64,000 nt of DNA from Mesoplasma tabanidae (lineage in GTDB: Bacteria; Bacillota_I; Bacilli_A; Mycoplasmatales; Mycoplasmataceae): the NCBI RefSeq assembly GCF_002804025.1, contig NZ_CP024969.1, forward strand, positions 434,001-498,000, read 5' to 3'. Of this stretch, positions 8,799-61,420 are shown piece after piece (position 1 is the first letter of the stretch; each line of letters begins with the position of its first letter). The notes below the pieces were generated by a model, which was given only the letters and a program-made list of their open reading frames with translations, had not been told where the DNA came from and ran no database searches. The translations under genes and the position numbers were made by a program.

Positions 8799-9884
8799 AT
8801 GGAAAAACAAAATAAAAAGCAAAAAAGTAAAAAAAGTAAAGTAATTTTAGCTTTTAGTGTGATAATAACAATAGTTATTTTCTTTTTAATCAAAATAGTA
8901 AATGCACTAGTAAACAATACTAATATTTTACTATCATTAAAATCTATTGGACTAATTCCGCCAGCAAATTTAAGTTTACCCAACATAATTGATTATGTAG
9001 CTAATATTATTTTGCTTATCGTTTTACCTATTTTAATTCTTACTTTAATTATTCTAATTATTAAAAGTAAAAGCCAATCAAAAAACGTGCTAAAAAAAGA
9101 GAAAAAAGAACTTGAAAATGAAACAATTTTACAAGTTGAAAACTTTGATATTGATGATTATCCTCATTATGAAGAAGACAAAACATTTTTTGATGAAATT
9201 AATAATGAAAATATTAACGATTTGACTTTGCTGCAACAAAGAGCAAAATCAGATGGATCAATTTTAATTAAAGAAAATTTAAGTGAATTAGTTAAAAATG
9301 CTCAAAAAATTAAAAACTATGCCATTTTAAATAATATAAATGTTGATGAAGTAGTTTTAGAAGAAATGACAAAAAAAGAATTAATTCTATTTATGAAAAA
9401 AATAGGCAATGAAATAAGAGAAAATGAGTATAAGAATCTTAATTCTAAAGATAGTAAAGTAGATCAAGCAATTTTAATTATGAAAAATGATAATCAAGAT
9501 CAAAATAGATCAAAAACTCTATCAAAAAATAAGAATATAATTGAGGCAGGTAAAATAACTCAAAAAAAGTCCTTAATAAGAAAAAACAAAATTACTAAAA
9601 AAAATCTAATTGATTCAATTTTTGTAAGTAACGAAAATAAATTAACAAAGGTTAAAATTAAAAAAATTGTAGATAGCTTATTTGAATTAATGGAAAGTAA
9701 TTTAATTAAAGAAGACTCAGTAATTAGAATTAATAATTTTGCTAAGTTTTCAACAGTTTTAGTTAATGAAGCAACAATGAGAAACATCAAAACAGGTGAA
9801 TTAAAACTTGTTCCTTCACATAAGGCAATTAAATTTAAATCATTAAAAGGTTTAAAGGAGAAATTAAATAATGAAAAAATATAA
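8799..9884 (+). CDS. Membrane-anchored HU/IHF-like DNA-binding protein
   Basis: 361 residues; ATG 8799 follows AAGAAAGGAAATT. A Lys-rich N-terminus leads into two transmembrane helices (about residues 14-38 and 65-92) with a short outside loop, so both termini should be cytoplasmic. An acidic helical linker follows. Residues about 264-358 match the HU/IHF fold: ITKKNLIDSIF helix, EDSVIRINNFAKFS (compare 'v.i.gFGkF' in HU), MRNIKTGE and a KAIKFKSLKGLKEKL C-terminus like 'vPaFKpGkaLKe'. HU proteins are normally about 90-residue soluble dimers. The role is inferred: membrane tethering of DNA or regulation. It overlaps the HTH gene by 14 bases. Confidence 0.8.
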   Translation: MEKQNKKQKSKKSKVILAFSVIITIVIFFLIKIVNALVNNTNILLSLKSIGLIPPANLSLPNIIDYVANIILLIVLPILILTLIILIIKSKSQSKNVLKKEKKELENETILQVENFDIDDYPHYEEDKTFFDEINNENINDLTLLQQRAKSDGSILIKENLSELVKNAQKIKNYAILNNINVDEVVLEEMTKKELILFMKKIGNEIRENEYKNLNSKDSKVDQAILIMKNDNQDQNRSKTLSKNKNIIEAGKITQKKSLIRKNKITKKNLIDSIFVSNENKLTKVKIKKIVDSLFELMESNLIKEDSVIRINNFAKFSTVLVNEATMRNIKTGELKLVPSHKAIKFKSLKGLKEKLNNEKI

Positions 9885-13130: not shown

Positions 13131-14092
13131 TATAAATTGTAAATGAAAGTGCAACACTTCTAACCGAATGTCTCATAAAATTTCTGAGCTGATTTGTAAT
13201 TCAGGATTTTACGAGGCATTTTATTTATTTCATTTAATATCACCTTTTAAATTTGTAAAATTAGTTTTCTTAGGTAAATATCTTCTGATCAAACCATTTA
13301 AATTTTCTTTTGCAATTAATTCTTTTAATTTTCTTTTGTATGTTTCATAGTTTTATTTTCTAATTTAATTGCAAAACCTTTTCTAGTAACTCTTTCAACT
13401 AGTGTCATTATGGCTTTTGAACTATTGCCAGAACTAACAATTAAATCAATTTCAAAATGACCAATGTCTTTTCTTTGATTAATATTTTTTAGGTATATAA
13501 GTAATTAGAATGGAATTCATTTTTGATATTTCTCATAGATAATGCTTATATTTACTAGACTTTTTTCATCAAAACCTAGGTCTCAATAAATCTTTTGATT
13601 TAATTTTTATTTGCTTATTCTTAATTCAATTGTAAACAGTTTGGGTTGCTGGTGTTTTAATCCCAAGTTCTTTGGCTTTAAAAACACAAACATCAATGCT
13701 AAAACTTTTTGGATTAAAATTAATATAAAGAAATTTCAAGAATTCATTATATTTACTTATTTTATTTTGATGAGATAAGGTATTATTAATATCTCTAGTA
13801 AATTGTGAATCCTTGGCTTTATAAATCATAGCTGCTTTATTTCTTTTAATTTCTCTGTAAATAGTTGATCTATTTCTATTTAGTTCTTTAGCTATGAAAA
13901 AAACTGATTTATTTTGAACATTTAATAGATATTCAATTAAAGTTCTTTCTTTTAAAGATATTTGTTTATAATTATTCATGGTAACTCCTTTGGGCTTTGA
14001 TCGGTCAGAAGTTGCTTTTTTTGTATAAAAAAAGCTGCAATTCCAATGAGATTATTTTCTCATAAGTGTTGCAGTTCCAATTTTAATTCGTA
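13131..14092 (-). mobile_element. IS30-family element, decayed copy
   Basis: 962 bp. The end at 14092, read inward on the minus strand (TACGAATTAAAATTGGAACT), matches the left end of the intact copy at 33965. The other end (TATAAATTGTAAATGAAAGT) has diverged slightly from that copy's right end. The transposase, on the minus strand, is broken, and the element is about 145 bp shorter than the intact copy because of an internal deletion. Confidence 0.9.
13160..13979 (-). pseudogene. IS30-family transposase, frameshifted and deleted
   Basis: Starts MNNYKQISLKERTLIEYLL with the HTH that heads IS30 transposases (RNRSTIYREIKRNKA), nearly identical to the intact protein at 34077. After Trp (TGA 13626) the reading frame is lost near 13490-13505 by small insertions. 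A block of about 130 bp that should hold the second Asp and the region before the Glu of the DDE site is missing near 13320. The end (TAG 13160-13162) is preserved. Not functional. Confidence 0.9.
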
Positions 14093-19503: not shown

Positions 19504-21807
19504 TTAATTTAGTTTACTCATGTCTTTAAACTTTGGTTTATATTCATTTTGTCAATTTGTATTTTCATCAAACCCTTGATGATTTCGAACATTTAATACA
19601 TTTCATTTTGATATATCATTATTAAAATTAGAATTATTAAACATATAAGACATATCAGTTACATTTGAAACATTTCATTCTGATATATTTTGATTAAAAA
19701 TAGAATTTTGAAACATTTTCTTTGTATTAGTGACTTTCGAAACATCTCATTTTGACAAGTCTTGATCAAAATTATAATTTAAAGCAAACATATATGACAT
19801 ATTAGTAACATTTGAAACTTTTCAATCAATAACTGTTTGGTCAAAATTAGTTCCAGTAAACATTGCTTCCATATTTTTCACTTTTGACACATTTCAGATC
19901 GATATATTACTGTCAAAACTTGAATAAGCAAACATATACGACATGTCAATAATATTAGATACATCTCAACTTGATATATCTTGATTAAAATTTTTAGTAA
20001 ACCTAAATAAATTTTTAAAACTTGTTATATTTTTGCTTACTGAATTAGGAACTTGCTCTATGGAGTTAGGCAATTTATATGCTAAACCATTTTTATCATA
20101 ACCTATATTAGTAACTATTTTTGTTCCATCTGGCGCAGAGCCCTTTATACTTATTTCTTTTTCACTATCTATATCTATATAGTATGTTAAATCATCAATA
20201 TAGTTTTTTTCTGTGTAAAAAGTGATATCTTCAACTTTACCAGAATAGACCAATGAATTTTCAATTGGTTCAACTGTAACTGTGTATTTTTTTATTTCTA
20301 AACCTTTAGGTATAGCTGTAATTGTTAATTTTACTTCATTAATTTTTAATTTAGGATTTTGTTTTAATAAAGCATCTTCTACAATTTGTTTATCATCACT
20401 TTCTAATTTACCTAAATCTTTTTCTAAAATTAAGCCTGGCAAATCGTCAAGATAGTTTTTTTCTGTGTAAAAAGTGATATCTTCAACTTTACCAGAATAG
20501 ACCAATGAATTTTCAATTGGTTCAACTGTAACTGTGTATTTTTTTATTTCAAAACCTTTATGTATAGCTGTAATTGTTAATTTTACTTCATTAATTTTTA
20601 ATTTAGGATTTTGTTTTAATAAAGCATCTTCTACAATTTGTTTATCATCACTTTCTAATTCACCTAAATCTTTTTCTAAAATTACGCTAGACAAATCGTC
20701 AAGATAGTTTTTTTCTGTGTAAAAAGTGATATCTTCAACTTTACCAGAATAGACCAATGAATTTTCAATTGGTTCAACTGTAACTGTGTATTTTTTTATT
20801 TCTAAACCTTTAGGTATAGCTGTAATTGTTAATTTTACTTCATTAATTTTTAATTTAGGATTTTGTTTTAATAAAGCATCTTCTACAATTTGTTTATCAT
20901 CACTTTCTAATTTACCTAAATCTTTTTCTAAAATTAAGCCTGGCAAATCGTCAAGATAGTTTTTTTCTGTGTAAAAAGTGATATCTTCAACTTTACCAGA
21001 ATAGACCAATGAATTTTCAATTGGTTCAACTGTAACTGTGTATTTTTTTATTTCAAAACCTTTATGTATAGCTGTAATTGTTAATTTTACTTCATTAATT
21101 TTTAATTTAGGATTTTGTTTTAATAAAGCATCTTCTACAATTTGTTTATCATCACTTTCTAATTCACCTAAATCTTTTTCTAAAATTACGCTAGACAAAT
21201 CGTCAAGATAAATAGCTTCTGTGTAAAAAGTGATATCTTCAACCTTACCAGAATAGACCAATGAATTTTCAATTGGTTCAACTGTAACTGTGTATTTTTT
21301 TATTTCTAAACCTTTAGGTATAGCTGTAATTGTTAATTTTACTTCATTAATTTTTAATTTAGAATTTTGTTTTAATAAAGCATCTTCTACAATTTGTTTA
21401 TCATCACTTTCTAATTTACCTAAATCTTTTTCTAAAATTACGCTAGACAAATCGTCAAGATAAATAGCTTCTGTGTAAAAAGTGATATCTTCAACTTTAC
21501 CAGAATAGACCAATGAATTTTCAATTGGTTCAACTGTAACTGTGTATTTTTTTATTTCTAAACCTTTAGGTATAGCTGTAATTGTTAATTTTACTTCATT
21601 AATTTTTAATTTAGGATTTTGTTTTAATAAAGCATCTTCTACAATTTGTTTATCATCACTTTCTAATTTACCTAAATCTTTTTCTAAAATTAAGCCTGGC
21701 AAATCAATTTTCTTATTTGTTACATTTTCACTACTACAAGAAACAGCTAAAATAACACCGTTTGTTGTTAAACTTAAAGCACATAAAAAACCTAATAATA
21801 CTTTCAT
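19504..21807 (-). CDS. Repeat-containing surface lipoprotein with DUF285/BspA-like C-terminus
   Basis: 767 residues. Lipoprotein signal with Cys at residue 24 (ILAVSCSS). Residues 36-539 are six tandem 84-residue repeats (ILEKDLG.LESDDKQIVEDA ... KVEDITFYTE). The C-terminal part (about residues 600-767) has repeats of the form FNQDISSWDVSNIIDMSYMF with the Trp encoded by TGA, the DUF285 (mycoplasma PARCEL/BspA-like) signature of surface proteins. Likely an exposed, size-variable adhesin-like protein. A 16-nt homopolymer lies 35 bases before the start, where the promoter should be, so phase-variable expression is plausible. Confidence 0.92.
20191..21702 (-). repeat. Six 252-bp tandem repeats within the DUF285 lipoprotein
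   Basis: Period exactly 252 bp (84 codons). Units differ at a few sites (LPGL or LSSV start; GKLES or GELES; PKGLEIKK or HKGFEIKK). In translation order, units 3+4 and 5+6 form a repeated 504-bp pair, pointing to recent recombination. Confidence 0.95.
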
Positions 21808-21828: not shown

Positions 21829-21861
21829 ATTTTAATTATTGCAAAAAAAAAAAAAAAACAA
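21829..21861 (-). promoter_or_regulatory. Homopolymer-containing promoter region (candidate phase switch)
   Basis: On the minus strand: TTGTTT overlapping the start of a run of 16 T (21858-21843), then GC and AATAATTAAAAT. With -35 TTGTTT and -10 AATAAT (21840-21835) the spacer is 15 bases, almost all T. Alternatively -10 is TAAAAT (21834-21829). Start codon at 21807. Confidence 0.6.
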
Positions 21862-33980: not shown

Positions 33981-34029
33981 AACTGCAACACTTATGAGAA
34001 AATAATCTCATAGGAATTGCAGTTTTTTT
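33981..34029 (+). terminator. IS left-end terminator hairpin
   Basis: AACTGCAA (33981-33988) pairs with TTGCAGTT (34017-34024) around an inner stem TATGAGA/TCTCATA, then seven T. It lies upstream of the transposase and includes part of the terminal inverted repeat. Confidence 0.8.
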
Positions 34030-34076
34030 GATACAAAAAAGCAACTTCTGACCGATCAAAGCCCAAAGGAGTTACC

Positions 34077-35042
34077 ATGAATAATTATAAACAAATATCT
34101 TTAAAAGAAAGAACTTTAATTGAATATCTATTAAATGTTCAAAATAAATCAGTTTTTTTCATAGCTAAAGAACTAAATAGAAATAGATCAACTATTTACA
34201 GAGAAATTAAAAGAAATAAAGCAGCTATGATTTATAAAGCCAAGGATTCACAATTTACTAGAGATATTAATAATACCTTATCTCATCAAAATAAAATAAG
34301 TAAATATAATGAATTCTTGAGATTTCTTTATGTTAATTTTAATCCAAAAAGTTTTAGCATTGATGTTTGTGTTTTTAAAGCCAAAGAACTTGGGATTAAA
34401 ACACCAACAACCCAAACTGTTTACAATTGAATTAAGAATAAGCAAATAAAAATTAAATCAAAAGATTTATTGAGACCTAGGTTTTGATGAAAAAAGTCTA
34501 GTAAATATAAGCATTATCTATGAGAAATATCAAAAATGAATTCCATTCCAATTACTTATAGACCTAAAAATATTAATCAAAGAAAAGACATTGGTCATTT
34601 TGAAATTGATTTAATTGTTAGTTCTGGCAATAGTTCAAAAGCCATAATGACACTAGTTGAAAGAGTTACCAGAAAAGGTTTTGCAATTAAATTAGAAAAT
34701 AAAACTATGAAACATACAAATGAAAAATTAAAAGAATTAATTGGAAAAGAAAATTTAAATATTAAATCTATTACTAAAGATAATGGTATGGAATTTAATC
34801 TTTTACATGAAGTCACACAAGAATTAAACGTACCACTTTATACATGTAATACCTACGCTTCTTGTGAAAAAGGAACTAATGAAAATTTTAATGGTTTGAT
34901 TAGAAGATATTTACCTAAGAAAACTAATTTTACAAATTTAAAAGATGATAATATAATAGAAATATTAAATGAAATAAATAAAATGCCTCGTAAAATTCTG
35001 AACTATAAATCAGCTCAGGAATTTTATGAGACATTCGGTTAG
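34077..35042 (+). CDS. IS30-family transposase
   Basis: 321 residues with TGA as Trp. The N-terminal HTH has NRNRSTIYREIKRNKA. The catalytic core shows the DDE order: FEIDLIVSSGNSSKAIMTLV (first Asp), SITKDNGMEFN (second Asp), and CEKGTNENFNGLIRRYLPK (Glu), ending with the usual IS30 tail. ATG follows CAAAGGAGTTACC. It cuts and joins the IS ends. The frame is intact, so the element may be active. Confidence 0.95.
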
Positions 35043-52014: not shown

Positions 52015-52713
52015 ATGAAAAAGTTATTATCAATTTTTAGTGTATTTGGGTTAACTGCGTCATCAGCACCAACTATTATGCATATTAATACATCAAGTGA
52101 AAATGCATCAATTAACAATGAAGAAATAAGAACTTTAGGTTCAGATGATATTCTTTATAATGAAAAAGCATTATCAAGTGAACGCGTTGCATATAAATTC
52201 AACAACTCGTACAATAATGAATTATTCTTTCATGAAACAACAGCAACAGGGAGACCTGATTGGACATATAGAACATATATTATTAAAACAAACACTCCAA
52301 AAAGTGAAGGCAAATGAATTGAATCAGTGGCCGTTAATAACGTTTATGGATCAAATAAAAAAGAAAGTGAAATTGTTTGAGGCGGTGATCGTTACTATCC
52401 AACTTCAGCTTTTGCAAGAACAAATTATATTAATACAAATAGAATCAATACAGGTTTTCCAAGTATGCCACCAGAATATATTAAAGCTTATTCAAATAAG
52501 TTAGCTTCATATTCATGAAGTTCTGGACTAGCAGTGCTTGATTATGAAGAATGAAGTGGAATTACAGAATATGATGATCCTTACTCAAATAACTTTGCTT
52601 TTATGTGAATTGTAGGATCGTGAATTAATCCTAAATGATCATTTTCTAATGGTAAGGCATGAACAAATTTAGGAAGAGAAATCGTCTTAGACATTAAATA
52701 TAATAGTTTCTAA
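52015..52713 (+). CDS. Secreted protein, hypothetical
   Basis: 232 residues. The signal peptide is of the mollicute lipoprotein style (MKKLLSIFSVFGLTASSAP) but has no Cys, so the product is probably secreted and cleaved, or held by its hydrophobic N-terminus. The mature part is rich in Trp (many TGA), Tyr, Ser and Asn, suggesting a compact beta-rich binding domain. No family recognised. Monocistronic: terminator at 52736. Confidence 0.85.
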
Positions 52714-52735: not shown

Positions 52736-52763
52736 AAAACGAAGAATTTTCTTCGTTTTTTTT
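52736..52763 (+). terminator. Rho-independent terminator
   Basis: AAAACGAAG / CTTCGTTTT with loop AATTTT, then a run of eight T. Confidence 0.9.
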
Positions 52764-52803: not shown

Positions 52804-52830
52804 TTGACAAAAAAAAAAAAAAAATAGTAT
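52804..52830 (+). promoter_or_regulatory. Promoter with poly-A spacer (phase-variation switch)
   Basis: Consensus -35 TTGACA (52804-52809) and -10 TAGTAT (52825-52830). The 15 bases between are all A (16 A in all with the last base of TTGACA). A 17-base spacer is optimal, so gain of one or two A would raise expression. It drives the surface-repeat operon. Confidence 0.85.
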
Positions 52831-52963
52831 TAGAAGTAACACTATTGTAGGTATATGTTTAATTTAATAAGTGAATTTTATTAACAGATATCTAAAAGTG
52901 GCAGCTAATAGTTATTTTTTAATATTAGCAAAAAAAGATCAAACAAAAAGGAGGATAACAAAA

Positions 52964-54271
52964 TTGAATGAAAATATTTTTAATAATAAAAAACAAAAAA
53001 CATCATTAATAATTATCCTATTGTTTTTCATATGTTTATTTTTAGGGTTAATTTTTTGGGTAAATCAATTAAATGATACGCACAAATATTTCATAGATTT
53101 TGTTAAAACTGAGCAAAAAGTTAAACAATATACAAATGATAATACATTTACAAGTATCGATAATTATCAAAGAGAGATTAATCAACTTGAGCTTGAAGGT
53201 GTTGAACTGTTTGCAAGTTTAAAAGATAACCAATCTATGTTAATTAATTCTCATACTAGTCAACAATATGAAATCAACATTCAAGTAAATTTTAAACTAA
53301 AATACAAATATTTTTGAATTCAAACAGAGCTAAATAACGAACAACAAAAAGAAACTTATTTGCTAAGTATCGATAATAGAAAAATAATTAATAAACAAGA
53401 TTTAGAACAATTTACAAGAAAACAATTAAGTTTTAAAGAATATGCTTTTACAAGTGATATACAAATTGATTTAGAAAAAATCGCTAAGCAATTTATTCCA
53501 ACTAAAGACGCTATAAATCTAAATCTAGTTAATCCAGAAAAAGAAATAAATGAATATATTGATGTAAGAGCTAGTTTGAACAATGAGCTTTATAAATGAA
53601 ATGATGGAAATGATGATGAGTATATAATGAAAGATATAAAAATTAAGAAAGACTTTTCAATTTTAATTGATGAGCAAAATGTGAATCAAGCATTAAGCAA
53701 AATAATTCAACAGATTAATTATTCAAGTATGCTATCAATTGATCAAGTAATTAATGAAACTTTTGTTGCTTATAATGCACAAGCTATTAATGACAACAAT
53801 ATAAAAGGAAGCTATATTATAAAAACAACACAAAAGTTAAAAACAAACTCTTCAAAAAATAAAAAAGAATTTTACTCATTAGAGTTTGAAATAGGTTTAG
53901 ATAGTAGATACAAATGAATTTCAACAAGAACAAACGAAACTAAAAAATTTATTTTTACTGACGACATTTATATTATTAACAACAAAATTTTGCTGGTTAA
54001 TGAAATTAAAAAAATAAAAATAAATTTTGAACAGCAGAAGTTCACCACTTATGATGAGTTAAATACTGAACTTGAAAGATTGAACAAAGAAAATGATCAA
54101 TATCAGCTTAAAATAACTGATTTTGATTTAAGCAAACCACTTGAAAATGACATGATAATTCAAATTAACATAAATTTAATTAATGATCACTATTGATTAT
54201 TAGACGATAACAGCATAATTAATGACGACATTATTTTAAAGCTAATCGTTAACAAAACAAAGGAGAAATAA
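52964..54271 (+). CDS. Membrane-anchored surface repeat protein 1
   Basis: 435 residues from TTG 52964, chosen because AAAAAGGAGG (52945-52954) stands before it; a GTG at 52871 has no such site. A basic N-terminus and one signal-anchor helix (about residues 12-34, LIIILLFFICLFLGLIFW) leave the rest outside. The outside part has about three related domains of 110-120 residues, each with a helix-forming stretch (TFTSIDNYQREINQLE; KFTTYDELNTELERL) and a strand ending in Lys-Trp or Tyr-Trp (Trp = TGA). Possibly related to mycoplasma type-17 lipoprotein domains. First gene of the switchable operon. Confidence 0.85.
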
Positions 54272-54272
54272 A

Positions 54273-55856
54273 ATGAAAAAATTATTAGGACTAATAACTG
54301 CAATATCATTAATATCAACATCAACTACATCATTTTATTCAATTAACACAAATAACAAAAAAGAAAATGTTATTTTGCCTGAAGAAAAGCCAAATGAACA
54401 AGGTGAAAATGATGTTAATAACACAAAATTAATTGCCAATGATGTTATTAACAAAATTCATAGTTCAGCTCAAAAAAGAACTTTTAAGTCATTTAGTGAA
54501 GCTCAAAATGAAATTTTAAACAATAAAACAAAAGGAACTACAATTTCATTTGAAAACACTCTTTTAAGTGAAGGCACAATTAAAAATGGAATGTTTAATA
54601 TAAACATTAAACTTGCTTTAGAAGAAAATTTTTCATGAGATAACACTAGTTTAGAAAATGAATTAACAATTTCAACAGTAATTAGTGTCGATGAAAGAAC
54701 AGAAATTGATGATAGTCAAATTTCAAGTTTATTTACACCGCTTAGTGAAACAATCCCAGCAACAGAAGAGAAAGTTGAACATCAAAGATATTATAAAACT
54801 ATAAATAATGCAATCAAAACTATTTTAAAAACTCAATACAATGATGGTGAAATTTTAAATGTTAATATTAAAGATGAATCAATAGCCCATGAAGTATTTA
54901 TTAATCAAGAAGTAACGTTTTTAGTTGAAATTATTTTAAATGAAGAAAATAAATGAAATCATTCTAATCAAAAAGAATTAAGTACAAAACAATTTGAAGT
55001 TACTTTGAAAATTGATCAAAGACAAGAAATTAAAGTTGGAGATATTCAACAAGATATAATGGCTAAAATACCACTTAATGAATATAATCAACGTAAGTTT
55101 TATTCTGAAAAAGAAGCATTAGACGCGATTAATAACTATAGTGACATATCTAGCTTAGAAGTTATAAAGGATAAAAAAATTTCACTTCAAGTTGAAAGCG
55201 ATTCATCAATTTTAACAAATGACCCAGTCTATAAAAAAGAATACAAAATCAAAGCAACCATTAATGATGAAAAATACAAGTGAAGTGATGAAACAATCGA
55301 AAGCAAAACTATAAATTTAGAAACTATTATTGATATAAGAACTGAAATTAAACAAGCTGATGTTGAAAAAAAACTATCTGATGCATTAGTTAATAAAAAA
55401 TTTAACACAGAAGCAGATCTAGTAAATCAAGTATTACAAATTGAAACAATTGATGGTTCTATGATTACAAATGTTGCAGTTACTCAAGTTAATGATGATG
55501 CAAAAGTAACTATACAAGTTATCTTGGATGCACAGCATCGATGAGATGATAAGGACGACAATAATTTACCTAAATCATTTCAAATTGATTCAAAAATTAT
55601 TGATACAAGATTAAGTTTAAGTAATGTTCACAAAGTTTTAAAAACAAAGTTTAATGAACAAAAATTTAAAAGCACTGATGAAGTAAAGAAATTTATTGAA
55701 GAAATTGAAATTGATGGATTGCTTATTAAAGAAGTAAGTATCACCGGAAACGAAACTGAAGGATGAATAATTATTTTAGAATTAACACCAAATGAAGATT
55801 ATACTTGAACAGATGGAACAAACAAACCAACAAAAGTAACACTTCTAGGAAATTAA
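54273..55856 (+). CDS. Secreted surface repeat protein 2
   Basis: 527 residues; ATG 54273 one base after the previous stop, with AAAGGAG before it. Signal peptide MKKLLGLITAISLISTSTTS without a lipobox Cys. The mature part has four or five domains of about 85-115 residues like those in the neighbouring genes (KRTFKSFSEAQNEIL; RKFYSEKEALDAINNY; KKFNTEADLVNQV; QKFKSTDEVKKFIEE), each closing with a D.R.EI-type strand. An outer-surface or secreted role is inferred. Confidence 0.87.
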
Positions 55857-55860
55857 AATA

Positions 55861-57132
55861 ATGAAAAGAAAATTAAATACATTAAAGAATTATAATAAGC
55901 ATCTGTGAATAAAAAAATACTTTAGACTTTGAATTAGTAAATCTAAATATAATAAAGTTTATAAGAAAGACATAATCAATGCACTTGATATTAAGCATCA
56001 AGAAATAAGTAAAATAAAAATTACAAATGTTGTTAATAGAACTCTTGAAAGTATCCAAAATGAACTTTTTAATCAACAAATAATAACTATTCGAGATTTT
56101 GGTAGTTTAAAAGTTGTAAAAAACAAAAAGCAATTAAGAATAGTTAAATTTACTCCTAGTAAAACTTTGAAAGAAAAAATGCAAGCAACAGAATGAACAG
56201 GCAAATATTGACAGCTAAAGAAAATAAAAAGAAAAAAGAAATGATTAATTTTACTTTTATTATTGCTTGCTTGTTTATTGTCAATAACTGCTACAACAAT
56301 AACAATTATTACTGTAACAGGTCAAACAACACAAAGAATTAAAAAAATAAGTTTTAATGAGCAACGTTTATTTATTCAGAATCTTGTTAAAGACAAAATC
56401 TATGATAGTTTTAATGATTTTGAAAAAGATGTTAAAGAAAATGCAAATAAGCAAGTTTTAGTAACTATTGAAAAAACTTCAACAAGAGAAAAAAGTGCGT
56501 TCTCAAAAATTGAAACACGAATTAAATTGGTTCCTAACGAAGGACATGAATGAGATGAAAATAAAGATGATCTAGAGCGTAGTTTTGAACAGCAGGTTTT
56601 AATTAAGAACAATAAAATTGTTAAAAAACAAGAAGTTGAAACACGACTAAATCAAATTTTAAATCTTTCATTTAATAATGAAAGTGACCTAATTGCAAAA
56701 GTTAATAAAGAATTTGCAGATTTTGAAAATATAATTTTTAAATCGGCTTTTCTTGACCAAAATCAGCAAGAAGAAAATAATTATATTTTTATTTTTGGAA
56801 TAGAGAACGATTATGTTTGAGATGATCAAACACAAGATGATATTGAAATATCAAAGCAAGTTAATTTATCTAATAAAATTGTTAGTTTAGCAAAAACAAT
56901 TAAACATATTAATCAATATTTTGAAGATTATATTTTTGTATCTGAATTAGAGCTAGACACATATATTAGTGAATTTAATTATCAAATTGAAACAATTAAT
57001 ATAAGTAAAGATAATTTCAACATGCAAACAAGTATTTTAACGTTAAAAATTAATTTAAATAATGACTATTACTGATCAGATGAAACAAGAGAAGAAGTAA
57101 TCTTACAAATAGTAATAAAAGGAAAGGAGTAA
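55861..57132 (+). CDS. HU-like domain fused through a membrane anchor to surface repeats
   Basis: 423 residues. Residues about 33-108 match HU/IHF: YKKDIINALDIKHQEISK helix, ITNVVNRTLESIQNEL, the beta turn IITIRDFGSLKVV (compare 'v.l.gFGtF'), then the C-terminal KFTPSKTLKEKM. The flexible DNA-gripping arm is shortened. A polybasic stretch (KKIKRKKK, 120-127) and one transmembrane helix (128-152) follow, so the HU domain is cytoplasmic. Residues 155-423 are outside and carry two or three repeat domains like those of the neighbours. Linkage of DNA or regulation to the surface is inference. Stop lies 3 bases before the next ATG. Confidence 0.85.
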
Positions 57133-57135
57133 TTT

Positions 57136-59682
57136 ATGAAAAAATTATTATCAATACTAGGAATAGGAATTTTTGTTACAGGGACTTCAACAGCTTCTTA
57201 TCCTATTTTAAGTTCAATTAGCCAAAATTTTAGAATTAATGAAAACATAAAGATTTTAAAAGTTAGTGAAATTAAACAAAATTTGCAAGAACAATTGAAC
57301 AATACTTTTAAAAATGAAGAAGATGTTGTTAAACTAATTAAAACTAATAACATTAAAGGTATTGAATATTCTGCTCAAATGCGCCCTATTAATGATGGAT
57401 TACATTTTGGACTAAGAACATTTAACATTATTGTAAAGATAACTGATTTTAGTTTATATCAATGAGAAAATAGTGATAAGCCTGATATGTTATTAACTAT
57501 GACTGCATTCATTGATGAACGCATTGAAATATCAACTAATTTAATACAGCAAGAATTAAATAAACGCTATGAAAATAAAATATTTGATTCAGAAATTAAA
57601 GCACAAAGAGAAATTTTATTAAACAATGAAATTATAACTGGAGCAAATGTTATTTATGTTGAACCTACTAATGCAATTAAACCTGAAGATAGTAAAATTT
57701 ATCAACAAAAATATAATGTTAAGGTTTCGTTAGACGATAAATATAAATGAGATATTCAACAACAATCAACAGAAGGTTTATACATAAAAACAAATATTGA
57801 CGAAAGAAATAAAATTGACTCTGAATCTATTAAAAATGAAATCAAAGAAAAACTTAATCTTAATAATAAACATTATGAAACAATTAGTGAAGCTACAAAT
57901 GAATTAAAAAATGTTGATTTCACTTTAAAAAATGATGTTGAAATAATAAATGTTAAACCCTTATCAAATATTACAAAAATAGACACTAAACAAATAAGTT
58001 TGAGCTATGATTTAAAATTAAAAGAACCTAAAAAAAATAAATGAGTTGATGAAACAGTTGATGATATAAACGCTGAAGTTTCAGTAGCTATTGATAGTAG
58101 AAATGAAGTAGATCTAAATAAAGTTAATAGCGAAATTAACACTTATATACAAGCAAAACAATTCAAATCAGTTGAAGAAGCTTTAAACTACACTAAAGAA
58201 TACAAAAACCTACCAGAAGAAATCATATTTGATAGTGTAACATCAACTTCAACAACAATCTTTGGTAATGCTGATTTAACAATCAAACTAAAAATAAAAG
58301 ACAGCAACAAAGCAAAATGATCAGACAACACAACCGAAACAAAAACAATCACCATCCAAGCAAAAATCGATGGAAGAAGCATTGTAGATCTAAATAAAGT
58401 TAATAGCGAAATTAACACTTATATACAAGCAAAACAATTCAAATCAGTTGAAGAAGCTTTAAACTACACTAAAGAATACAAAAACCTACCAGAAGAAATC
58501 ATATTTGATAGTGTAACATCAACTTCAACAACAATCTTTGGTAATGCTGATTTAACAATCAAACTAAAAATAAAAGACAGCAACAAAGCAAAATGATCAG
58601 ACAACACAACCGAAACAAAAACAATCACCATCCAAGCAAAAATCGATGGAAGAAGCATTGTAGATCTAAATAAAGTTAATAGCGAAATTAACACTTATAT
58701 ACAAGCAAAACAATTCAAATCAGTTGAAGAAGCTTTAAACTACACTAAAGAATACAAAAACCTACCAGAAGAAATCATATTTGATAGTGTAACATCAACT
58801 TCAACAACAATCTTTGGTAATGCTGATTTAACAATCAAACTAAAAATAAAAGACAGCAACAAAGCAAAATGATCAGACAACACAACCGAAACAAAAACAA
58901 TCACCATCCAAGCAAAAATCGATGGAAGAATATCAATTAAAACTGATTTAATAGTAACTGATTTAGGTTACTTTGCTTGAAAAGAAACAGAAGCTCAACA
59001 AACTATTAAAAACAAAATTTTAGAAAAAAATGCAAATTTAAAAATTGATGAGATTGAACTTACAGAAATAACAAATAAAAGCGCAAAAGTTAATGTTAAC
59101 CAAAATTCTAGCATATACTTTGTCGAATCATTAATTATAAGCTTTGAAAGAGATGTTCGTGTAGCACTAGCAACACATGTAAATAAAACAAATATTGGTC
59201 AGATACAAACCACTAGAGATAAAATCAATTTAAATTTATTAAAAGCATTAGTTATAAATAATCCAAATTTAAATACTAACGAGATTGAAATTTTAAATAT
59301 AAATTATTCAGACGAAAATAACTGTAAATTTGACTTAAGCGTTAAAAAAGATTCTAAAGTTTACTTTGAAACTAAAATGGCTTTAACATTCACCCTTAAA
59401 AAAATTGATATTATTGCAAGTATAAATAGTACAAGTAAGACAATTATGATTGAAAAAGTGGAAACATTAGAAGATGCATATAATTACTTTAAAAGTGGAA
59501 AAGATCCCCAATTTAATAATCTTTATCAGTGAGATGATGTTGAAATAGTAGAGTGAGTTAATGGTTCAAGTTCATCTTATCCAGAATGATATTCAGGTTA
59601 CTATGTCATAAAAGTAAAAAAAGATTCATTCTATTATAAAAATGGTGGTCAATCTAAATTGTATCTTAGAAGAAAATATTAA
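57136..59682 (+). CDS. Secreted surface repeat protein 3, size-variable
   Basis: 848 residues. Signal peptide MKKLLSILGIGIFVTGTSTAS without Cys. Several diverged domains are followed by three identical 92-residue units (FKSVEEALNYTKEYKNLPEE ... WSDNTTETKTITIQAKIDGR, Trp = TGA), then a unique C-terminal part (about 595-848) with two LI.NL/ALVINNPNLNTNEI-type modules and an aromatic end (SSSSYPEWYSGYYVIK). AAAGGAG before ATG 57136. Last gene of the phase-switch operon; a terminator follows. Likely surface-exposed and length-variable. Confidence 0.9.
58108..58930 (+). repeat. Three identical 276-bp tandem repeats
   Basis: Units start at 58108, 58384 and 58660 (GTAGATCTAAATAAAG). No difference was seen between them across the full 276-bp unit; the third loses identity at 58931. 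In frame (92 codons). Confidence 0.95.
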
Positions 59683-59704
59683 CGAATACAAAAAATGTAG
59701 TACT

Positions 59705-59738
59705 AAAAAGTTTTTTCAAATACATAAAAAAACTTTTT
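59705..59738 (+). terminator. Operon terminator
   Basis: AAAAAGTTTTTT / AAAAAAACTTTTT hairpin ending in a T tract, 23 bases after the last surface gene. Confidence 0.8.
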
Positions 59739-59751
59739 TATTAACAAGAAA

Positions 59752-60317: not shown

Positions 60318-61420
60318 TATCAATTGTAATTGGAAGTGCAACACTTGTGAGAAAATATTTTCATGAGTCACTTCCTTTTTTGCATAAAAAAAGTGAATAC
60401 CTCAATAACCGTTCAAAGCACAAAGGAGTATTCACATGAATAATTATAAACAACTAAATAAAAAAGATAGATATTTGATTGAATATTTATTAAATGGCTG
60501 AAAAGTATTGCTTATATTGCAAAAGAATTGAATAAAAATAGATCAACAATTTATAGAGAAATAAAAAGAAATAAAGCTAGTGAAATTTATACAGCAAAAG
60601 ATGCACAATTCTCAAGAGAAATAAATAATCAAAAATCTCATTTAAATGAAACAAAAAATTATCAAAACTTTATTCAATATTTATACTCCAATTTTAGTAA
60701 AAAATATTCAAGTATTGATATTTGTGTTTTTAAAGCCAAACAATTTGGTATAAACACGCCAACAACAAAAACTGCTTACAATTGAATCAATACAAATCAG
60801 TTAAAGATTAAACCTAAACATTTGTTGAGACCTAGATTATGATGAGATAAGTCAAGTAAATACAATGAACCCTTTAAAAAAATAGCTAACTTAAATTCAA
60901 TACCTATTTCGTTTAGACCTAAATGAATAAACAATCGTTCAGAGTTTGGCCACTATGAAGTTGATCTAATTGTTGGTGAAAAAAACAGTGGTTATATTTT
61001 AACTTTAGTTGAAAGATTAACTAGAAAAGCTTTTGCGATTAAATTAAAAAATAGAACAATGAAGCATACAAATGAAAAATTTTTAGAACTTATTAATAAA
61101 AAAAATATTATGCTAAAAAGTATCACAAAAGATAATGGTATGGAATTCAATTTATTACATGAAATTACTAATAAAATTAATGTCAAATTATATACGTGTA
61201 ATACTTATGCTTCTTGTGAACGTGGGACAAATGAAAATTTCAATGGACTAATGAGAAGAGAATATCCAAAATCAACAAACTTTTCTAATTTAAATGATGA
61301 TACGATTAACTCATTACTATCACAAATAAATAAAATGTCTCGAATAACTGCTTAGCCATAAAACTGCTAATCAATTATTCGAGACATTCGGTTATAAGTG
61401 TTGCACTTCCATTTACAATT
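60318..61420 (+). mobile_element. IS30-family element, diverged second type, decayed
   Basis: About 1.1 kb with ends AATTGTAATTGGAAGTGCAA (left, 60322) and AATTGTAAATGGAAGTGCAA (right, reverse strand), both continuing CACTT. The flanks TAAAACTTAAGTT (60306) and TAAAACTTTAGTT (61421) look like an imperfect target duplication. The right end touches the pepP stop codon. The transposase is broken. Sequence differs clearly from the 33965 copy, so it is a separate subtype. Confidence 0.85.
60436..61400 (+). pseudogene. IS30-family transposase, frameshifted twice
   Basis: Begins MNNYKQLNKKDRYLIEYLLNGW. One A is missing near 60500-60505 (GGCTGAAAAG), which throws the HTH (IAKELNKNRSTIYREIKRNKA) out of frame with the start. 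The body from 60528 is open through TGA-Trp codons and keeps the DDE residues: FGHYEVDLIVG, SITKDNGMEFN, CERGTNENFNGLMRR. A second single-base change near 61350 brings a stop (ACTGCTTAG) before the normal ETFGYK end. Confidence 0.88.

Follow-up and report, generated by a model that had tools for sequence, protein, structure and literature searches.

Four adjacent genes (g1–g4) in the window, the 64,000-nucleotide stretch of Mesoplasma tabanidae DNA analyzed here, encode paralogous surface proteins that share a repeat domain and all lack a lipobox cysteine. Our preferred reading, which we rate somewhat above even, is that they form a complex at the cell surface that is tethered to the membrane, expressed as a set, and probably phase-variable. 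An earlier sequence-only reading of the locus had also proposed a complex, in which anchored members hold secreted ones.

Read with NCBI code 4 (TGA as Trp), the four open reading frames (Table 1) are separated by 1, 4, and 3 bp (g1–g2, g2–g3, and g3–g4, respectively), in agreement with the spacing of 1–4 bases given in the sequence-only reading. The start codon of g1 is TTG, with GGAGG just upstream. A single transcription unit is the best explanation for g1–g4, a joint judgment that we hold with slightly better than even confidence. As for internal operon promoters, the promoter scan returned 53 matches, fewer than the 68 obtained in shuffles, and internal matches carry no meaning in DNA this AT-rich.

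Table 1. Features of the g1–g4 operon and its flanks, in window positions
Feature	Position	Strand	Description
Terminator-like hairpin and T-run closing the preceding gene	52736..52759	+	10 pairs, then a T-rich tail
Promoter candidate	52804..52833	+	TTGACA 52804-52809; A16 52809-52824; weak -10, TAGTAT 52825-52830 or TATTAG 52828-52833
g1	52964..54271	+	Predicted N-in signal-anchor (TM ~aa 13-33), 4 repeat domains; first operon gene, conserved
g1 repeats 1-4	53093..54265	+	53093-53383, 53387-53680, 53681-53986, 53996-54265; domain table, coordinates converted from aa
g2	54273..55856	+	MKKLL signal without Cys, 5 repeat domains
g2 repeats 1-5	54435..55844	+	Domain table
g3	55861..57132	+	HU-like domain, predicted cytoplasmic; one TM; 3 repeat domains
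g3 HU/IHF-like domain without DNA-binding arm	55948..56181	+	PF00216 match, arm gap, Hbb match, Foldseek
g3 transmembrane segment	56239..56319	+	QLKKIKRKKKW directly before TM, hence N-inside
g3 repeats 1-3	56347..57120	+	Domain table
g4	57136..59682	+	MKKLL signal without Cys, 6 repeat domains, C-terminal region distinct from them
g4 repeats 1-6	57256..58932	+	Domain table
g4 tandem copies	58108..58930	+	Three x 276 bp; the first two identical, the third divergent at the array end only
g4 C-terminal region	58933..59682	+	LGYFAW.../LGQIQTT... repeats and final W-rich domain; repeat profile gives no match
Possible terminator after g4	59704..59741	+	AT-rich inverted repeat then T's, read from sequence; too GC-poor for the hairpin scan

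The repeat domain that the sequence-only reading had seen in all four genes is real, and profiles show its copies to be related far above chance. It spans ~90 residues, is predicted to fold as helix-helix-three strands, and is present in 18 copies (four in g1, five in g2, three in g3, and six in g4). Profiles built from three genes recovered the fourth with E values of 2.5e-7 (g1), 1.9e-26 (g2), 6.2e-8 (g3), and 8e-27 (g4); none of 800 shuffled sequences was listed, and the best other proteins of the window reached E 10–13. The motif proposed to define the domain turned out to be loose: the Trp of the W-D/E-D motif is the sole invariant residue across copies, and the D.R.EI element, clear in g2 and g4, is weak in g1 and g3. 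Searches of curated Pfam and NCBIfam profiles gave no match to the repeats of g1–g3 and one above cut-off in g4, to SSURE (35.4 bits), which was rejected as chance because the score accumulates over three near-identical versions of one 29-residue segment. A PDB fold search returned a best Foldseek E of 0.28 and a best VIA-align Z of 6.6, the level of common arrangements, and when the repeat profile was run against PDB sequences, keratin came out best (E 0.12). The idea of the outer repeats as diverged HU folds, prompted by helix-helix-strand predictions for both, found no support (profile–profile probability 0.1%). The near-identical tandem repeats of g4, overlooked in the sequence-only reading and duplicated independently in a genome of another genus (G003), would allow the longest subunit to vary in length.

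The case for a possible switch lies upstream of g1, in a poly-A promoter candidate that the sequence-only reading had also overlooked. Promoters of M. florum have mostly strongly degenerate -35 elements (PMC7745072), against which a perfect TTGACA followed by a weak -10 stands out here. Ahead of the orthologous operons of M. grammopterae and G003 there is likewise a TTGACA with A16. The combination of TTGACA with at least 12 A occurs once each in this genome and that of M. grammopterae, both times at the operon, and is absent from five other Mesoplasma genomes; G003 has two such sites, one at the operon and the other preceding a different anchored protein with tandem repeats. A TTGACA-poly-A match at G050:66552, behind an acyltransferase-like gene, may be terminator sequence. 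Expression of M. hyorhinis vlp and M. mycoides vmm is switched by repeat-length changes in the promoter region (PMC10502178), and the candidate promoter region here likewise contains a simple-sequence tract. With a -35/-10 spacer consisting almost entirely of poly-A, gain or loss of one A would alter the distance between the two elements and could turn all four genes on or off as one, which would make the candidate promoter an on/off switch. The resemblance to Vlp and Vmm extends to surface genes placed behind a homopolymer or dinucleotide tract and to in-frame, length-changing tandem repeats (PMC10502178), whereas one candidate promoter serving a four-gene operon, non-lipoprotein products, and large divergent domains set the present locus, where switching is putative, apart.

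The A tract measures 16 nt at all three orthologous operons and at the second G003 site (one genome per species); in this genome, the same length is shared by most of the other long A/T tracts examined, those at transporter genes among them. Such constancy could point to a fixed promoter element, or to selection for the ON length, rather than to a hypermutable switch. A fixed, intrinsically curved element that raises transcription without switching is accordingly a serious contender, though one we rate below even. Against it, homopolymers of 16 nt are inherently slippage-prone. The analogous M. hyorhinis tracts, moreover, do switch (PMC10502178). With this poly-A promoter, coordinated phase variation of a whole assembly becomes testable in the genus of M. 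florum, a laboratory model.

The sequence-only reading was right to divide the proteins into two with signal-anchors (g1 and g3) and two with Cys-less signals (g2 and g4), but g3 is more than an anchor, since an HU-like region had been overlooked. The N-terminal ~125 residues of g3 are predicted to be cytoplasmic and HU/IHF-like. Residues ~30–107 score 27.6 bits against PF00216 (cut-off 22.4; 33.1 bits in a six-frame genome scan), a PDB sequence search with the domain matched Hbb, and the top 28 Foldseek rows obtained with a low-confidence model (pLDDT 62.5) were nearly all HU/IHF. Thus placed above the curated cut-off of the family that includes Borrelia Hbb and Spiroplasma HU, g3 differs from it in being fused to a TM and an ectodomain and in lacking the RNPxTGE-type DNA-binding β-arm: the PF00216 match stops at profile position 57–58 of 90, and a 14-column gap opens at the arm when g3 is aligned with the genome's five further HU-fold proteins. 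Four of these five are membrane proteins (window 8799–9884, and 565257, 597218, and 829450 in this genome, G000), and the genes at 565257 and 597218 lie directly behind surface repeat protein genes. Like g3, they attach an HU-fold domain to the membrane; unlike g3, they have N-terminal TMs, a C-terminal HU domain with the arm, and no g3-type ectodomain. A literature search on membrane-anchored HU in mollicutes found nothing direct. Bacteroidetes HU-TM-SPOR proteins place HU inside, followed by a TM and an extracytoplasmic, peptidoglycan-binding SPOR domain, the same layout as in g3, except that g3 carries a mollicute surface repeat on the outside; mollicutes themselves are wall-less.

The gene is missing from the other loci carrying the operon (M. 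grammopterae, G003, G054, and G055), and a scan of genome contigs with g3 alone found no relative; the scan with the g2 alignment recovered the M. grammopterae locus. By its repeats, g3 looks like a lineage-specific duplicate of the g1 type; g3r1 groups with g1r1, g3r3 with g1r4, and g3r2 weakly with g2r4, all on long branches. The lost arm, the long branches, and the occurrence of the gene in one species among those examined would suit a passive fusion with the HU-like tail as a decaying, partnerless remnant, an account we find unlikely given a reading frame that stays open for 423 codons in a reduced genome, the retention of core HU positions and of EWTG, which resembles the KWTG-like motif found after the HU domain in other membrane HU proteins, and the appearance in the low-confidence model of both helices used by HU for dimerization. 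Under the preferred reading, the tail would most likely pair with another HU-fold protein, perhaps a membrane HU protein of this genome, rather than bind DNA in the arm-dependent manner. That it might link a phase-variable surface assembly to the nucleoid, pairing inside with HU or a membrane HU protein while the outer repeats join the complex, is a long shot, and g3 offers a concrete way to ask whether the nucleoid of mollicutes is attached to the envelope.

Without g3, the operon is conserved. The same succession of g1, g2, and g4 is found again in four relatives belonging to three genera (M. grammopterae in the same genus, G003 in another, G054, and G055), so that the order anchor, g2-type, g4-type is kept in five genomes including this one. 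G054 has one complete cassette plus an additional anchor-g2 pair, and in M. grammopterae g2 and g4 lie 95 bp apart, a distance at which g4 might be driven by a promoter of its own. The repeat counts of g1/g2/g4 are 4/5/6 here versus 4/5/6 and 3/5/5 in the compared relatives, and the repeats of the three compared species cluster by position, not by species, indicating that the architecture is old and the repeats are not interchangeable. Neither PADLOC, for anti-phage defense, nor tblastn with g2, for a plasmid origin, gave a match. Surface-antigen operons are common in mollicutes, and the repeat domain is also present elsewhere in single lipoproteins that have the Cys (L052, L055, and L061), as might be expected if the four were separate surface antigens with an operon and an old domain in common but no joint complex. 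We nevertheless regard such independence as rather improbable, because across several genera the gene order stays fixed and the repeats are orthologous position by position, which suggests constraint between subunits. The retained order fits the multi-subunit assembly that the sequence-only reading had in mind, but its particular form, with g1 and g3 anchoring g2 and g4, is not a conserved unit.

Cysteine positions confirm that a lipobox Cys is missing from the N-termini of all four proteins: the only Cys residues are C24 of g1 and C138 of g3, both within the hydrophobic anchors, and C730 of g4. The lipobox with an invariant Cys that marks bacterial lipoproteins is absent from g2 and g4 and from their relatives in every genome carrying the operon; g2 scores 20.8 bits with LP_plasma, below the cut-off of 24, and no match was reported for g4. 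A search for signal peptidase I (Peptidase_S26, PF10502) was negative in all seven Mesoplasma genomes and positive in 14 of 14 control genomes, and LspA (SPase II) was found in 7/7 Mesoplasma genomes. With no recognizable SPase I in Mesoplasma, the Cys-less signals of g2 and g4 more likely keep both proteins membrane-tethered as uncleaved anchors, as has been reported for membrane-bound M. hominis P80 (PMC539234); release by an unrecognized protease is possible. In the proposed arrangement, g1 would be an N-in/C-out anchor, and g2 and g4 would be exported by lipoprotein-derived signals that lost the lipid-modified Cys and remain in the membrane uncleaved. The design of tethered plus released members, with the g1 and g3 anchors holding secreted g2 and g4, is doubtful given the seven genomes without an SPase I match and the position of g3 outside the conserved unit, even though mean hydropathy of the TM segments is far higher in g1 and g3 (3.3 and 2.7) than in g2 and g4 (1.3–1.4), g4 contains STA|S, where cleavage would be plausible, and M. 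hominis P80 is known both as an uncleaved membrane form and as a released form (PMC539234).

In near-minimal bacteria that are wall-less and, in Mesoplasma, without recognizable SPase I, a conserved Cys-less surface operon suggests that tethering without lipid or cleavage can be a stable design rather than an annotation error. A close organizational parallel is M. hominis P60/P80/HinT, co-transcribed surface proteins of which P80 stays attached through an uncleaved signal lacking Cys, whereas P60 is a genuine lipoprotein (PMC539234). Compared by organization only, the two operons share co-transcription of surface proteins and a Cys-less uncleaved signal (both putative here), as well as a connection with a cytoplasmic partner that the same operon encodes. 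HinT is a separate protein, whereas in g3 the putative inner partner, an HU-like domain, forms part of a subunit.

The four adjacent genes for related surface proteins (g1 to g4) form a conserved set that is more interesting than first stated, for partly different reasons. The M. tabanidae genome (G000) is a single contig of 846,907 bases, with TGA read as Trp. The sequence-only reading of a common repeat domain, spacings of 1-4 bases and no lipobox Cys in any of the four proteins is real: the gaps measure 1, 4 and 3 bp, no such Cys occurs, and in a leave-one-gene-out search the repeat profile from three genes recovered the fourth at E 2.5e-7 (g1), 1.9e-26 (g2), 6.2e-8 (g3) and 8e-27 (g4). That profile listed 0 of 800 shuffled control sequences, and other window proteins reached E 10-13 at best. 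AlphaFold2, run on 16 window repeats, predicts a helix-helix-three-strand domain (pLDDT 85), which had no significant Foldseek neighbor and a best VIA-align Z of 6.6, the level of common arrangements. The genes would share one transcript and their products would assemble jointly. The window also holds three transposase-like copies, which we take to be IS30-like, one of them just downstream of the operon and apparently incomplete.

Coordinates of the features discussed (window positions unless a genome stretch, L, or C1 is named)
Feature	Position	Remark
g1	52964-54271	4 repeats
g2	54273-55856	5 repeats
g3	55861-57132	3 repeats
g4	57136-59682	6 repeats
Transposase-like copies	60528-61355, 34017-35042, 13479-13979
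Membrane HU protein	8799-9884	PF00216, 65 bits
Surface repeat/HU pairs	L056 7174-8007 + 8011-11814; L066 1417-2319 + 2309-3217	G000
Anchor protein	L053 4184-5269	G054
g4 remnant	L051 5072-5389	G012
Cys-less MKKLL signals	52015-52713; L056 4081-5187	G000
Repeat lipoprotein	19504-21807
T16 tract	21843-21858	minus strand
Long A/T tracts (L141-L148)	G000:C1 near 242635, 274434, 400385, 432101, 556073, 583691, 590759

A scan of named genomes placed a g2 relative in the congeneric Mesoplasma grammopterae ATCC 49580. Relatives of g1, g2 and g4 occur in identical order there and in three other genomes (G003, from another genus, G054 and G055), with an additional anchor-g2 pair after the trio in G054. 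The repeat search found no such operon in the other Mesoplasma examined, and its distribution is therefore patchy. G012 keeps a truncated g4 remnant, beside a valS-linked region; because the window genome has a repeat lipoprotein there, this region suggests a surface-gene exchange site. When 45 repeats of M. tabanidae, M. grammopterae and G003 were placed in one tree, grouping followed position rather than species, except at the end of g4, where the window has three near-identical 276-bp copies and G003 two (3 differences over 276 bp). These copies cluster species by species, so the same part of the protein seems to have been duplicated recently and independently in each, which is suggestive of size variation.

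Mollicute surface-protein operons are already known; the unusual component here is the HU-tailed subunit g3, which is absent at the other loci carrying the operon. About 125 residues precede its TM, and residues 35-91 match PF00216 over the curated cut-off. The best PDB sequence match of this tail is Borrelia Hbb (E 0.021), and the top 28 Foldseek rows, obtained with a weak query model (pLDDT 62.5), are nearly all HU or IHF. The tail lacks the arm by which HU grips DNA, and the EWTG that follows it corresponds to a KWTG found behind the HU domain of three of the four membrane HU proteins of this genome. Those four, with N-terminal TMs, and one ordinary HU are its HU-fold proteins besides g3; the one in the window carries a C-terminal HU/IHF domain with a DNA-binding arm. 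Two lie directly behind surface repeat protein genes (3 bp apart or overlapping) whose products have a C-terminal TM, the same pairing as in g3 but split over two genes. An HU-fold protein may partner the g3 tail. The closest relatives of the g3 ectodomain are g1 (r1 groups with g1r1 and r3 with g1r4; r2, a long branch, groups with g2r4) and M. grammopterae g1, so g3 looks like a g1 duplicate that gained an HU tail. An anchor protein of G054 has a basic cytoplasmic extension of ~60 residues before its TM, in which no HU domain was recognized by eye.

The further proposal that some members are released is weakened. SPase I (PF10502) was not detected in seven of seven Mesoplasma by a search positive in 14 of 14 controls; LspA was found in all seven, and the g2 and g4 signals cannot be its substrates because they lack Cys. 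Release by some unrecognized protease is possible. The simplest outcome for Cys-less proteins would be that the signal stays uncleaved and serves as anchor. This is the reported state of the membrane form of M. hominis P80, a protein of which a cleaved, released form exists as well (PMC539234). On this reading the operon's proteins would be retained in the membrane. They may descend from lipoproteins, since relatives carry the same domain in lipoproteins that do have the Cys. Further MKKLL signals without Cys are present in G000, so they form a class, not an accident. One (52015-52713) scores 28.8 bits with LP_plasma, over the cut-off, and such proteins may therefore be mislabeled as lipoproteins by annotation pipelines.

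Upstream of g1 lie TTGACA, A16 and a weak -10, and TTGACA with A16 stands at the same place before the orthologous operons of M. grammopterae and G003. G000 and M. grammopterae each have a single TTGACA followed by at least 12 A, in both cases at this operon, and the other five Mesoplasma have none; a second G003 site precedes another tandem-repeat anchored protein. In M. florum the -35 element of promoters is as a rule degenerate (PMC7745072). In other mollicutes, similar tracts act as switches of vlp and vmm genes (PMC10502178). The four genes would switch together, a reading held with caution mainly because tract length is constant at 16; A16 may be a fixed element or a selected ON length. 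Only two homopolymers of at least 11 nt occur in the window, both of 16, the other lying 36 bp upstream of the repeat lipoprotein gene. That lipoprotein, with six 252-bp repeats and WDVSNVT-type repeats (the PARCEL/DUF285 repeats of mollicutes), is probably a second phase-variable candidate. The long G000 tracts that were read span 15-18 nt and stand before genes for lipoproteins, for one anchored protein and for transporter-like products; those of L141-L148 are near-constant in length, mostly exactly 16 nt, and the genes shortly downstream of them are of lipoprotein, anchored-protein, ABC and PTS type.
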